From Nannobrachium achirus (lineage: Eukaryota; Chordata; Actinopteri; Myctophiformes; Myctophidae): DNA of 64,000 bases. Below, one piece after another: positions 832-63,776 of this stretch (the stretch's first letter is position 1; the number at the start of each line of letters is the position of its first letter). Location: NCBI GenBank assembly GCA_963921795.1, contig OY997653.1:62581932-62645931 (forward strand), written 5' to 3'. A program made the translations under genes and the position numbers. The notes under the pieces are model-generated. The model made no database searches. It saw nothing but the letters and a program-made list of their open reading frames with translations, and was not told where the DNA came from.

Positions 832-1160
832 CAGGGGTCGTCAACGTGTTCAGGCCAAGGACCTCTTAGTTGAGAGAGAGATGAAGCAGGGACCCCCACA
901 ACCTGTTCATAGATTCCATATAGTTTCATCGTTTGACAGCACAATCGTCAGTGTATTTTGGATTCATGTCAATTTGTGTTTTCAGATATTTAACCACTTG
1001 AACCGTCAATACTTAATAAACTTGACCTTTCACTCTATACTTTGTCTGCTCTTTTTCCCCTCTTCTACACCAAAGCTCTTTGCCAAAAACAGCAGATCTA
1101 CAAGCTCACAACGCCTCGTGCTGCGAGGCGTTGTGAGCTTGTAGATCTGCTATTTTTGGC
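832..1160 (+). mobile_element. family A hAT-type MITE, 5' part ending at its hairpin
   Basis: Starts with the hAT-like terminus CAGGGGTCGTCAACG and matches the complete family A copies at 33.8 and 55.6 kb up to and including the HP palindrome (1082-1160). It then passes directly into an unrelated GC-rich tandem repeat. The expected right end, GAAGACCCCTG, is missing. Confidence 0.75.
1082..1160. repeat. HP hairpin, near-perfect (family A context)
   Basis: The arms GCCAAAAACAGCAGATC and GATCTGCTATTTTTGGC pair over nearly their whole length. The inner stem is the CGCCTCG/CGAGGCG type. Confidence 0.9.
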
Positions 1161-1320
1161 TGGAGCAGGGCCCTGCATGTGGCTGACCGTCATGCTGCAG
1201 CAGAGCCCCTGGAGCAGGGCCCTGTGGCTGACCGTCTGACCAGACTGGAGCAGGGCCCCTGGAGCAGGGCCCCTGCAGCAGGGCCCTGTGGCTGACCGTC
1301 TGACCAGACGCTCCCCAGTA
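1161..1320. repeat. GC-rich tandem repeat
   Basis: Repeats of GGAGCAGGGCCCTG and GTGGCTGACCGTCTGACCAG, two to four times, starting exactly where the family A element breaks off. Confidence 0.7.
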
Positions 1321-1464
1321 CAAACAGTGCATACAGGAAGGCCGTGGCCCACGTGGGCTTCAGAGGAACGCTTTCTCCTCCAACTGCCCTGCCCTGCCGT
1401 GCACTCTACGTGCACTCTACGTGCCCTCTACGTGCCCTGTCCGGGAGAGCCCAGGCTGATGGAC

Positions 1465-1946
1465 TTAAAGGACATCTTTGTTTTTTTTTTACAAGGGTTC
1501 ATATTTTAGATTGTAATTAGAGAAAAGGAAATATGAGTGTTACAATTGTTTTCCTTTACTACTTTCTATTGTTTTAGCAATTTTAGTGTTTTGATTTCAG
1601 TGGGTGGGGGCATGCGTACAAGTGGCTAAATATTTATTTTAAGACACAATAAGCCGGCAATGTCTTTGTTAATATTTACACCAACCCCCATAACTCACAT
1701 CTGCCCATGAAAGATTGCTGTGTATCTTGGGAATGGGCTTATTGTGTCAAAAAATACATATTTAACCACATGCATGCATGCCCCCAACCTAGGGGCATGC
1801 ATGCAAATCAAAATCGTTAAAATCACTAAAACGATAGAAAGAAGTAAATTAAAACATTTCTTAAAAATCATCTTTTCTTTTCTCTAAAATCTAATCTATT
1901 ATCTAAAATATGATCCCTTGTTGTAAAAAAACAAAATTGTCCTTTA
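1465..1946. mobile_element. family J TTAA-type foldback MITE, copy 1
   Basis: Long terminal inverted repeats. The left end is TTAAAGGACATCTTTG and the right end is TTGTCCTTTA. The next ~40 bp of each arm (ACAAGGGTTCATATTTTAGA) also pair. TTAA targets are typical of piggyBac and Kolobok; no transposase is present to decide. The right TTAA has decayed to TTTA. Confidence 0.8.
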
Positions 1947-1975
1947 CCCATTTAGGGTTAGAATTATTGAATGCT

Positions 1976-2468
1976 TTAAAGGACAACTTTAGTTTTTTAC
2001 AACAAGGGTTCATATTTTAGATTGCAATTAAAGAATATAAAAGGTGAGTGTTAAAATGATTTCATTTACTTCTTTCTATTGTTTTAGAGATTCTTATTTC
2101 AGTGTTTGGGGGCATGCATACCAGTGGCTAAATATGTCATTTTACACAGAATAAGCCCATTCCCAAGATACAATGCAACCTTTCATAGTTGGATGTGACT
2201 TATGGGGGCTAGAAGTGTTACTGTAAATAGCAATAAAGAAACTGCTGGCTTATTGTGTCTAAAAAGACATATTTAGCCATATTTAGCCAGCATGGGGGCA
2301 TGCGTACGCATGCACCCATGCGTACGCATGCCCCACATTTTAGCACGGTAAACGCGATAAAACAATAGAACGAAGCAAATGAAAACATTTTAACAATCAC
2401 TTCTTCTTTTCTCTAATTACAATCTAAAATATGAACCCTTGTTGTAAAAAAATAAAGTTGTCCTTTAA
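1976..2468. mobile_element. family J TTAA-type foldback MITE, copy 2
   Basis: Complete element flanked by TTAA on both sides (1976-1979 and 2465-2468), with terminal repeats AAGGACAACTTT and AAAGTTGTCCTT. It holds an inner palindrome (2296-2333) built on GGGGCATGCGTACGCATG. Confidence 0.85.
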
Positions 2469-2472
2469 CCAG

Positions 2473-2549
2473 TGAAAAATAGCAGATATACAAGCTCACA
2501 GCGCGGCACCGAGTGCCGCTCTGAGAGCTTGTAGATCTGCTATTTTTGA
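2473..2549. repeat. HP hairpin, near-perfect (family B context)
   Basis: The arms GAAAAATAGCAGAT and ATCTGCTATTTTTGA enclose the GCGCGGCAC/GTGCCGC inner stem, which differs from the family A stem yet still pairs. Confidence 0.85.
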
Positions 2550-2870
2550 AAAAGTCGTTTGTAACTCAAATTTTGCTTCTGGGTGGTCCCTGGAACTAGA
2601 TATTTTGAGATGGGGGTCCGTGGCCAAATAAATATCAGTTTGGGGGTCCTTCACATGAAAAGGTTTGAGAACCACTGACATAGTAGTCTCTCAAGAACAG
2701 ACTAACTGAGCTCCATTTAAGCGAAAAGGACCTTTTCTTTGACAATGGCTGGCCAGATTGCTGACATAGAAACATAGGTTTTTTCAAAAAATCTTAGAAG
2801 GATTCAAAAGACACTTATAGAATCGTGTATATACAAATTTTCACGATTTCACGAAAAGCAAGGGATGTGA

Positions 2871-3250
2871 CCAAGGGTCTAGCAGCTCTACCTCAGAACA
2901 AACACCACCCTGGTGGTGATCAAATATTTAGATCTGACTATGGGAGCAGCAGGATCCTCCACTGTGCAGACTTTATTTTAGTGTTTCTCTGTCCAGCAGC
3001 TGGGATTTTATTTTTGGGTGATGTGCTTTGTAAAGTATATTTTCATATCTCATGCAATATGCACAAATAAACAAATAAATGTGTACAAAACCTTAAATGG
3101 ATTTCTTTATTCAAATGGATTCCTCGCTGTCAGTGAGTCACTGACAGAAAGATGCAGCAACCTGCACATTGCACAAGGTTCACGAGTTTGCAATATGCTG
3201 GCTTTTCAATGTGATGGTGACATCACATCATTGTGGAGAGAATACATGAT
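2871..3250. other. no feature recognised
   Basis: Apparently unique sequence; nothing recurring within the window was recognised. Confidence 0.45.
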
Positions 3251-61813: not shown

Positions 61814-61853
61814 GGCAAGAACGTTTCTGTATGCAATGTGCCTGCCTACCTAC

Positions 61854-62413
61854 TAGGGATGGGACGATATTGTGGTGGAATTTGAGTTCTGTCAATAAGA
61901 CATAAATAAAGAAGTGTCAGAGGCAAAGGCACAAGGTGGTGGTGGTGGTTTAATACAATGAATTGTATAAGTGTTTGTGTACATAGGAGTACCACAGGCC
62001 TGTGGTACCGAGATTCTGCCTCAAGCAAAGGAAATCAAACCCTAGTTATACATGGCATTGCAAGGACAAGCTGTAACATAAACAATATCTATCAACCTAG
62101 GAAAACATCTTACAGTACATCATGTTGTCTGTAATGCATGATACAGCAGAATCTACTCTTACTAACGTCACTCATATTCAATCATGATAATATAATATCT
62201 ACTACTGTTATTGACGTCACATAATCAATCATGATAACAAACTCTACGACAATATGAAAATGTCATATCACGACAAACGGCAAATAAAAGGTGAATTGAT
62301 CCCAATGCATGACAGAGTATGATATCACAATGAATTAAATCTCCACGATACGATTATTGTGAGTGTTTTTTTTATCACGATAAACTATAATATTGCGTAT
62401 CATCCCATTCCTA
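61854..62413. mobile_element. family F hAT element, perfect 8-bp TSD, HP absent
   Basis: TAGGGATGGGACGATATTGT to TATCATCCCATTCCTA. Exact 8-bp flanks CTACCTAC (61846-61853 and 62414-62421). The right third matches the reversed 6.54 kb copy (GATCCCAATGCATGACAGAG). The middle is unrelated and has no hairpin. Confidence 0.9.
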
Positions 62414-62421
62414 CTACCTAC

Positions 62422-62752
62422 CCTGTGCAGAATATTATGCTTGTGTGTGTTAATATGAGAAATAGACCATTTTCCTGGTCCACACAAAAAAATGGTTGTT
62501 TTAAGTACGTTCACCATTTGAACCGTTTATGATTAGACATTTAGACGTTTGGTTTAGGGATTATAGATCGATTAGATAAGATATTTACACTAAGTTGCAC
62601 GCTGGTGTCGTGCACTGAAAATATAAGATCAGCCTTAGGGGCTAATGGTTAAAAATGGCAATGCAAAAAAAGTGGCATTCAGACAAAATCACTGTCCTGT
62701 GACGGCGTCCCACTTTAAAATGTTGATGTCTTCAACACGTATACTATAGTAG
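62422..62752. other. no feature recognised
   Basis: ACCATTTGAACCGTTTATGA at about 62510 recalls the outer HP-module motif; nothing else was seen. Confidence 0.4.
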
Positions 62753-62823
62753 CTTGCGCGCGTGCGTGTGTGCGTGTGTGTGTGTGCACACACACTGACG
62801 TGTGCGTGCGTGCGCGTGCACAC
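62753..62823. repeat. mixed (GT)/(GC)/(CA) simple repeat
   Basis: GCGCGCGTGCGTGTGTGC, then CACACACAC, then GTGCGTGCGTGC; self-complementary overall. Confidence 0.85.
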
Positions 62824-63035
62824 GTCAGGCCCTGTCAGAGGGTCTGAAATGTGTTCTAGCAGGAAGGAAGCAGGGTGCAGAGGGGCTGACAGGAGGATGA
62901 GGCAGCGGTCCTCTGGAATGTGTTCTGAACGGTGTTTATGAGGCTCCAACTGTCCATCACAACCTGTGTGGCCTTGGTCTCTGTCAGCACAGACCAGCAT
63001 GCATGGCAACAGATGGACACGTGTAGTACACACTG

Positions 63036-63170
63036 TCACACACACACACACACACACACACACACACACACACACACACACACACACACACACACACACA
63101 CACACACACACACACACACACACACACACACACACACACACACACACACACACACACACACACACACACA
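63036..63170. repeat. (CA)n microsatellite, about 67 units
   Basis: Uninterrupted CA dinucleotides over about 135 bp, the longest pure simple repeat in the window. Confidence 0.98.
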
Positions 63171-63374
63171 ACCGCAAAGGCTGTCGGTGATTGAGTGTGG
63201 GCTTCAGTCGTCCTGTAGAACGGAGCGTGCCCACATCAAGCCTTTAACCACTTTAACCACACTGCATGGCGGAAACAAAAACAAAAACATTCAGAAAAGG
63301 CCCGCGACGAGACGAATGTTCGCCAATGACGACATAGCCAGGAGAAGGCAGCTAGCTAGGCTTATGACAGCGTT

Positions 63375-63776
63375 TAGGGCTGTCACAATTATTACATAAT
63401 CGTCTAATCGTGATTATTTGACATTATCGCAATTATTTTTGTCATAATCGTCATAATCGTGAATGTTGAAAAATGTCAGAAATAGTGGAAATAGCAGATC
63501 TACAAGCTCACAACGCGTCGCATTGCGACGCGTTGTGAGCTTGTAGATCGGCTATTTCCACTATCAATGTTATTTTTTAAGTAGTAAGTTGTCGAATATG
63601 TCAGTAATGTCTTCGTGTATTTAGGTTTTGTGTCATATCTGCCATGTGCAACTTCAAAGCCTAAAAGCCAAACAGAAATGTAATTGTCAATGACAAAAAC
63701 ACAATTAAATCGTTAATCGCCAATTATTTGAGTGACAATTAATCGTCATGTAAAATGTCATATCGTGACAGCCCTA
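63375..63776 (+). mobile_element. family D hAT-like element, complete
   Basis: TAGGGCTGTCACAATTATTA to CATATCGTGACAGCCCTA. AGCGTTT is found directly at both flanks (near-complete 8-bp duplication, C/AAGCGTTT). Subterminal ATAATCG/CGATTA repeats. A full HP sits in the middle. Confidence 0.88.
63482..63564. repeat. HP hairpin, near-perfect (family D)
   Basis: ATAGTGGAAATAGCAGATCT pairs with AGATCGGCTATTTCCACTAT. The inner stem CGCGTCGCATTGCGACGCG is perfect. This is the longest uninterrupted HP, 83 bp. Confidence 0.95.

Follow-up and report, generated by a model that had tools for sequence, protein, structure and literature searches.

An imperfect 73-nt hairpin carried inside several families of small DNA transposons in Nannobrachium achirus

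A 64,000-nucleotide stretch of the Nannobrachium achirus genome (assembly GCA_963921795.1, contig OY997653.1, positions 62,581,932 to 62,645,931; hereafter the window) contains dozens of copies of one short imperfect palindrome, most of them lying inside small transposons whose flanks are often unrelated to one another. We tentatively favour, at a little under an even chance, the reading that each host family acquired this hairpin about once, long ago, and that it has since travelled as a passenger, copied by transposition of its hosts.

The recurrence of the palindrome is real. Allowing up to three mismatches, its arm (GCMGATCTACAAGCTCAC) occurs at 56 sites in the window, compared with a mean of 0.11 and a maximum of 1 in 100 shuffles. 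We also built a 35-nt arm profile (RAAAATAGCMGATCTACAAGCTCACAACGCSTCGC) from arms of the window and of sampled genome stretches, and applied it at a threshold of at least 5 bits; the best match in reversed sequence scored 4.6 bits. With this profile the window yields 72 arms, and pairing of facing arms gives 47 loci, 25 complete and 22 half. The original prediction, made from the window alone, had described about 40 copies between 1082 and 63564. The recurrence stands with a somewhat higher count, the span fits the well-preserved hairpins (1085 to 63559, with two weak half copies to their left, at 231 and 707), and the complete, half and collapsed forms it described were all found.

The window is not exceptional: the profile finds 209 arms in 250 kb of other sequence, made up of 25 stretches (the first 25 of 200 drawn at random), 24 of which contain arms. 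Stretches beyond the window carry L-numbers in our sequence set (e.g. L013); L002 (a duplicate of L001), L005 (overlapping L004) and the viral L011 and L012 were left out of profile-based counts. Across the whole sample, facing arms pair into 220 loci, 109 complete and 111 half. Extrapolating from the 25 10-kb stretches gives 1.39 million arms in the genome (95% bootstrap range 1.03 to 1.75 million), at about 0.9 million loci and covering 2.2% of genome bases, although this is an estimate from stretches that come only from the first 36 Mb of contigs C1 to C22. Across the 1.66-Gb assembly there are 126,368 exact copies of the 18-mer core (63,691 + 62,677) and 0 of its reversed control. A chance origin is ruled out by the shuffles, the reversed 18-mer control and the reversed-sequence profile scores. 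A viral or bacterial source was also rejected; two viral contigs contain the 18-mer, but neither has a hairpin around it. A structured RNA family found no favour either, with 0 Rfam matches at the gathering threshold in the window. Elsewhere in the assembly (G000:C1:2317920-2394249), eleven exact GCC cores lie mostly 6 to 10 kb apart, probably through tandem duplication.

In column counts over 188 arms (L005 still included), conservation extends from RAAAATA to CGTCGC and no consensus lies directly outside it, hence a unit of about 35 + 3 + 35 nt. The commonest span is 73 nt (43 of the 109 complete hairpins). When folded as single-stranded DNA, five window hairpins reach -40.3 to -48.7 kcal/mol (z -13 to -18). 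In L004 (2156-2744) and L008 (583-742), arms have turned into short tandem arrays with spacings of 52 and 31 bp and of 25 bp, respectively, as if the arm had seeded tandem duplication.

To define the hosts, the flanks running outward from each arm were clustered; left and right clusters pair up into families lettered A, B, D, E, F, G, H, I, J and K (letters that may differ from those of the original prediction). Loci were assigned to these families by hand; of 182 in the window plus the random stretches, 67 fitted none, and one more joins D to G. Each host's ends and target duplication were determined copy by copy. Terminal repeats of hAT elements have a consensus of the CAGNG/TAGNG type, and four hosts conform to it, each with 8-bp duplications. 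Family E ends in TAGGGCTGTC..GACAGCCCTA; across four copies the duplication is perfect in two (L013 TTTGAGAA, L021 CATACGCT), 7 of 8 in L029, and not present at the exact spacing in the window copy. B2 (CAGGGGCGTCAC) has a perfect duplication in L031 (catgcagc) and the window (cattcctc) and 7 of 8 in L014. Three copies with F flanks (CAGTGGTTCTCAAC) give a perfect match in L029 (tgctagtt), 7 of 8 in the window and no match in L009, while six A copies (CAGGGGTCTTCAAC) give one perfect match (L022 tgttagat), three of 7 of 8 and two without a match. B1 has TTAA at both ends in 5/8 hairpin-bearing copies; we take the TTAA-type hosts (B1 and an inner element of A, described below) to be piggyBac or Kolobok like. 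Finally, D (CGTCGTTGTCGGG) has a matching AT-rich 4-bp duplication in 6/10 elements, with none in L028, L032 and L037 and a doubtful right end in L029. The 8-bp, TTAA and 4-bp duplications place the hosts in at least three insertion classes, in agreement with the earlier claim that they differ in ends and target duplications. A long interspersed nuclear element (LINE) had also been named as a host. This was not confirmed; the flanks of the copy at 28076 have no second copy in the sample, apart from one 27-bp match.

The best-resolved window hosts and their hairpins are as follows (hairpin coordinates from arm-profile loci; strand given where assigned).

63487 to 63559: complete hairpin, family E, the best example (arms 40.9 and 39.5 bits)
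63373 to 63778, plus strand: host E, hAT-like, TAGGGCTGTC..GACAGCCCTA around the hairpin
50711 to 50783: complete hairpin, family F
50518 to 50907, plus strand: host F, hAT-like, CAGTGGTTCTYAAC..GAGAACCACTG; duplication 7 of 8
48878 to 48950: complete hairpin, family B2, first of two in the element
49171 to 49243: complete hairpin, family B2, second of two
48797 to 49317, plus strand: host B2, hAT-like, CTGGGGCGTCAC..GTGACGCCCCTG; 8-bp duplication cattcctc on both sides
25729 to 25793: hairpin, family B1, first of two
26145 to 26217: complete hairpin, family B1, second of two
25690 to 26258, plus strand: host B1, TTAA-type, CCCGTTTAGGCC..GGCCCTAAATGGG; ttaa on the left, ttta on the right
38277 to 38354: complete hairpin, family D
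38205 to 38461, plus strand: host D, CGTCGTTGTCG..CGACAACGACG; 4-bp duplication TTAT
38835 to 39009, minus strand: D element without hairpin (AAACTAGTTTTGTATG), duplication AAAT; a deletion or pre-insertion form
55651 to 56090, plus strand: host A, hAT-like, CAGGGGTCT..GAAGACCCCTG, with a half hairpin inside; duplication 7 of 8

The families have their own versions of the hairpin, with GCACAC on both arms in D, ACATGC in F, CTCCAAG in H and AGCGCGGCAC in B. Another feature is common to five of them: in A, D, E, F and G, the arm on one side is by majority GCC and the other GCA (C and A counts, respectively, 8/13 and 9/11 in A, 5/9 and 6/11 in D, 7/8 and 5/7 in E, 2/3 and 4/4 in F, 3/5 and 4/5 in G). 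B has GCA on both arms and H mostly GCC on both. Genome-wide, family E has 4,337 exact junctions, and in 96 of the 100 sites listed the GCC arm is on the CAATG side. This common asymmetry indicates that the imperfect hairpin was handed on with both arms, and speaks against its rebuilding from one arm. Recurrent gene conversion of the hairpin was considered and not adopted; arms are less variable than flanks in 12/13 groups, but these arms had been selected by score.

To establish how the hosts are related, 21 flank consensuses were compared with an E threshold of 0.05, covering all groups but K, with H and J represented by 2 to 4 sequences. Next to the hairpin, D, E, F, H and J have no match longer than 12 nt to each other or to the rest; F has a stretch in common with A and B, but only from at least 89 nt outward, where it resembles a hAT end. 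Some kinship does exist: A and I flanks have 30 nt at 83% in common, B and G 20 nt at 90%, and A and G 22 nt at 86%, while B1 and B2 have a common hairpin-bearing interior and different ends. These alignments leave about six mutually unalignable host groups: {A, B, G, I}, D, E, F, H and J. The original prediction of at least ten unrelated families, with nothing but the hairpin in common, was therefore too generous. It holds among D, E, F, H, J and the A/B/G/I complex, so the host families do not all align outside the hairpin, but it fails within A/I, A/B/G and B1/B2.

The B/G and A/G matches lead to a motif, GGGTTMAAGTGGTTAA, found at 47 sites in all sampled DNA vs 5 in reversed sequence, and in 16,319 exact copies genome-wide (reversed control 1). 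At distances of up to 120 or 160 nt from the hairpin, 42 half-flank matches point outward and 3 inward (counted per half-flank, not deduplicated, excluding four artefacts at stretch edges, two outward and two inward). Most belong to families A, B and G, many of them to A, and about ten loci fall outside these. A carrier flank profile with nine seeds, including A, B and G, gives 46 matches, 31 of them in register with the hairpin, and 0 in the reversed control. In A the motif stands on both sides, inverted and ending in TTAA (TTCA once), and encloses 144 to 192 bp with hairpin arms; for this inner element (TTAACCACTTGAACC..GGGTTCAAGTGGTTAA) there are 6 convergent motif pairs and 0 same-direction controls. 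A is best read as a hAT-like element containing a nested TTAA element with the hairpin inside, and on that reading part of the spread of the hairpin is ordinary transposon-in-transposon insertion. Similarly, B1 (TTAA ends) and B2 (hAT ends), with their common interior, are best read as a replacement of ends.

A further candidate early carrier is an element we call P, perhaps PIF/Harbinger-like, whose profile describes some degenerate hairpins with long inverted outer arms resembling ..CGTCGTACGAYGAAGTATRAAT... A P 22-mer from outside the hairpin has 13 exact sites, and a degenerate arm of at least 5 bits lies in register in 6 of these 13 stretches (L044, L047, L049 and L050, plus L039 and L045 at a weak 5 to 6 bits). 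The other 7 have no arm in register; L038 has one, far from it. These sites make P plausible as the source of all hairpins, but we rejected it as such: the P profile matches none of the 21 family flanks, and three of its 13 matches have no hairpin near.

These carriers bear on a different reading, namely that all hosts are branches of one ancient miniature inverted-repeat transposable element (MITE) centred on the hairpin, either a TTAA-type carrier or the palindromic P element, with outer parts since lost to divergence or replacement. We consider this possible but doubtful. The outward motif in A, B, G and some ten other loci, the carrier-profile matches (from seeds that include these families), the common interior of B1 and B2, and the arm at the centre of six P copies, two of them weak, would all fit such a descent. 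It would leave D, E, F, H and J, whose flanks next to the hairpin align neither with A/B/G nor with each other, and P sequences that match no family flank or have no hairpin, hard to place. Above all, hairpin consensuses are nearly identical across families while the flanks are unrecognisable, and simple divergence does not give that.

Alternatively, the hairpin could itself be a minimal transposon, made of terminal repeats only, which some transposase mobilised in trans and which host families later took along. Its common edge is certainly sharp (RAAAATA/TATTTTY), with the next bases varying by family, and the unit is transmitted whole with its GCC/GCA asymmetry. Direct repeats also adjoin it in places, with TTGAAAAAT on both sides of the unit in B and ACTAGT on both sides in one D copy (L015). 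However, we found no target duplication common to the hairpin itself; the length and sequence of the junctions vary by family, and inspection of the junctions in E and F revealed no direct repeat at the common edge. Instead, the flanks commonly show short inverted matches of a few bases, reaching 11 nt in one D copy, which could mark a palindromic target. The matches in E, F and G are inverted rather than direct, and over all 109 complete hairpins the outward inverted match is only moderately above that of shuffled pairings (mean 1.86 vs 1.04).

A self-mobile hairpin might also have left pre-insertion alleles. We identified copies with short inserts (exact flank anchors up to 30 nt apart), 151 in D, 190 in F and 5 in E. 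Among those listed (100 of D and 100 of F), insert lengths vary and many contain arm remnants, so these copies look like collapsed palindromes; a closer tally of the D inserts covered 37 of the 100 listed (151 in all). The recurrent shortest forms, TTTAAACTACTTTTGTG in D and CGGTTCTATTTCTGCC in F (each 4 of 100 listed), would fit either a deletion between short direct repeats or a rare empty site; for comparison, exact left junctions to the edge of the hairpin number 21,048 in D alone. The hairpinless D element in the window reads AAACTAGTTTTG, and a sister copy AAACTAGT-hairpin-ACTAGTTTTG, a pair that likewise could reflect either a 6-bp duplication or a deletion between direct repeats. No clear pre-insertion form was found for D, E or F among the short-insert copies. 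Joining the flanks of 108 complete hairpins gave 65 spanning matches, and those listed are mostly self-matches and collapsed copies, with a few ambiguous cases. In locus pairs where only one member has a hairpin at the compared place (L031/L028, L035/L029, L026/L017), the homology is one-sided or ambiguous.

Copies in unique DNA, which the original prediction proposed to look for, give a mixed picture. Unassigned flanks and a best arm of at least 15 bits occur together at 43 loci, 14 of which reach at least 30 bits. In eight of these 14, a flank proves related to A, B, D, F or G; the other six (window 25486, L014 4413, L019 9503, L025 352, L031 147 and L001 2007) have no such flank. L005 also contains a near-perfect hairpin (1501-1559) with exact core arms and an edge other than AAAATA; its flanks are inverted and GGGACAGARAG-like. 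In L014 (4413-4749), two half hairpins bound a stretch of about 265 bp and face outward from it, in the manner of terminal repeats. An autonomous element ending in the arm was rejected, as the inner flanks of half copies have no long common interior; their largest groups are a tandem array, low-complexity links and family members. The six arms without a related flank and the L005 hairpin are what a self-mobile element might leave. With neither a common duplication length nor a clear empty site, we still regard independent movement as unlikely, and of the suggested "mobile or capturable" palindrome, capturable fits better.

That each hairpin was restored by fold-back copying of one arm (template switching), which would also copy a few host bases in inverted order, is very improbable: host-specific inverted extensions do occur beside arms, and L036:4607 and L009:1494 have the same-side A-type flank on both sides, but such copying would yield identical arms rather than the GCC and GCA arms that five families keep, so it is disfavoured for the founders and may apply to single copies.

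We return, then, to an old hairpin acquired about once per family. An imperfect 73-nt palindrome would have become an internal part of the founder of each small non-autonomous DNA transposon family, and each family would have multiplied with its own enzymes (hAT-type with 8-bp duplications, TTAA-type, or 4-bp), copying the hairpin along. Sometimes the hairpin would have moved by nesting (as in A) or been retained during a change of ends (B1/B2). In D, E, F, H and J it may have been captured during break or gap repair at palindromes, or have arrived by nesting whose outer traces were lost.

Several points weigh against this reading. For D, E, F, H and J we found neither a nesting remnant nor a donor. 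For the putative nesting in A, the exact predicted empty site of the inner element has 0 matches, although this is expected if the A copies arose after nesting. Outside the hairpin, A, B and G are alike over short stretches only (20-22 nt, E 6e-4 to 5e-3). The six well-preserved arms outside family-related flanks and the L005 hairpin are not readily accounted for by a purely clonal passenger. Lastly, hitchhiking alone does not explain why several families contain the same hairpin rather than random filler. Perhaps the 73-nt palindrome is instead a module passed whole among transposons of different transposase classes; its self-complementary arms would probably stall repair synthesis, and any two broken ends carrying the palindrome could join, so that with no enzyme of its own it would have reached nearly a million loci. 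This bolder proposal is rather doubtful.

The remaining complete, collapsed and degenerate hairpins of the window are listed here.

1085 to 1157: complete hairpin, family A (one flank)
2475 to 2547: complete hairpin, right flank B-type, left flank of another repeat
4875 to 4947: complete hairpin, family G
5767 to 5839: complete hairpin, family D
6779 to 6851: complete hairpin, family I
8767 to 8803: collapsed hairpin, flanks of no assigned family
9905 to 9978: hairpin, B-type on one side
11235 to 11296: hairpin, family D on one side
13115 to 13187: complete hairpin, family H
15463 to 15514: collapsed hairpin, family B
17095 to 17152: collapsed hairpin, family A
19345 to 19401: degenerate hairpin, right arm P-type
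28076 to 28129: degenerate hairpin without the AAAATA edge
33949 to 34011: hairpin, family A
48330 to 48384: collapsed hairpin, family B1
50068 to 50140: complete hairpin, family J
52211 to 52283: complete hairpin, family E, right arm rearranged
56990 to 57052: degenerate hairpin, flanks of no assigned family

A further inverted repeat, distinct from the hairpin, lies at window 1901-2022 (46-nt arms, 30-nt gap); a related copy flanks the hairpin at 2475. The half hairpins of the window are as follows.

231 to 265, plus strand: half hairpin beside a GGGCTTGAGTGGTTAA motif
707 to 741, plus strand: weak half hairpin
6155 to 6189, plus strand: half hairpin, carrier flank
8518 to 8552, minus strand: half hairpin, P-type flank
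9507 to 9541, minus strand: half hairpin, P-type flank on one side, TTAA motif on the other
14552 to 14587, plus strand: half hairpin
15190 to 15224, minus strand: half hairpin, family B
15691 to 15725, plus strand: weak half hairpin
19995 to 20032, minus strand: half hairpin
25486 to 25520, minus strand: half hairpin, P-type flank
26783 to 26817, minus strand: half hairpin, family A
31363 to 31397, minus strand: half hairpin, family D
32576 to 32610, plus strand: half hairpin, family G
33399 to 33433, minus strand: half hairpin, F-like flank
35915 to 35949, plus strand: half hairpin, family G
36691 to 36725, plus strand: half hairpin, family D
38053 to 38087, minus strand: half hairpin, A-like carrier flank; the best carrier-profile match, also a profile seed
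46483 to 46517, plus strand: half hairpin, family E
52259 to 52293, minus strand: half hairpin, family E
55904 to 55938, plus strand: half hairpin, family A
56908 to 56942, plus strand: half hairpin, family A
57909 to 57943, plus strand: half hairpin, family H

The window also contains a 29-bp tandem array (41917-45571; 126 copies, 97% matches) and tandem arrays with 30-, 17- and 31-bp units (39624-40675, 57264-57822 and 61213-61813, respectively).

If the hairpin was passed between transposon families, a single short palindrome without genes can make up about 2% of a vertebrate genome, and repeat classifications that rely on internal sequence would group unrelated families by mistake. The hosts with shortened hairpins (the 151 D and 190 F copies) would also be a natural record of palindrome deletion in the germ line.

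Among known systems, the hosts resemble hAT- and TTAA-type MITEs, including nested or composite ones, in their terminal repeats, their 8-bp or TTAA duplications and their length of a few hundred bp; the likeness to nested or composite MITEs extends to A, where one element apparently lies inside another. What sets them apart is one internal hairpin common to hosts that span at least three duplication classes. The Angel elements of fish are also palindromic and abundant, but, by their general description, form one family. In the literature on palindromes, MITEs, fish, nesting and internal sequences common to several elements, no title or abstract opening among the matches listed described one hairpin common to unrelated transposon families, and four hairpin core strings did not occur in the literature text searched. 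The REP/REPIN palindromes are likewise small and high in copy number, but they are bacterial and, by the titles of the papers, have associated transposases (PMC3116915, PMC2817692); none is known for the hairpin described here, for which no transposase search was made. The closest analogue we found is the palindromic GC clusters of yeast mitochondria, which are described as many-copy short palindromes that merge and shuffle, with an unsettled amplification mechanism (PMC4478555). One of these, GC42, is 42 nt long with a putative AG duplication, and its turnover between strains has been shown (PMC4478555). Both are short palindromes in high copy number, but the yeast clusters are organellar, with a putative duplication and turnover, whereas the hairpin of N. 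achirus is nuclear and 73 nt long, and its junctions show no common duplication.

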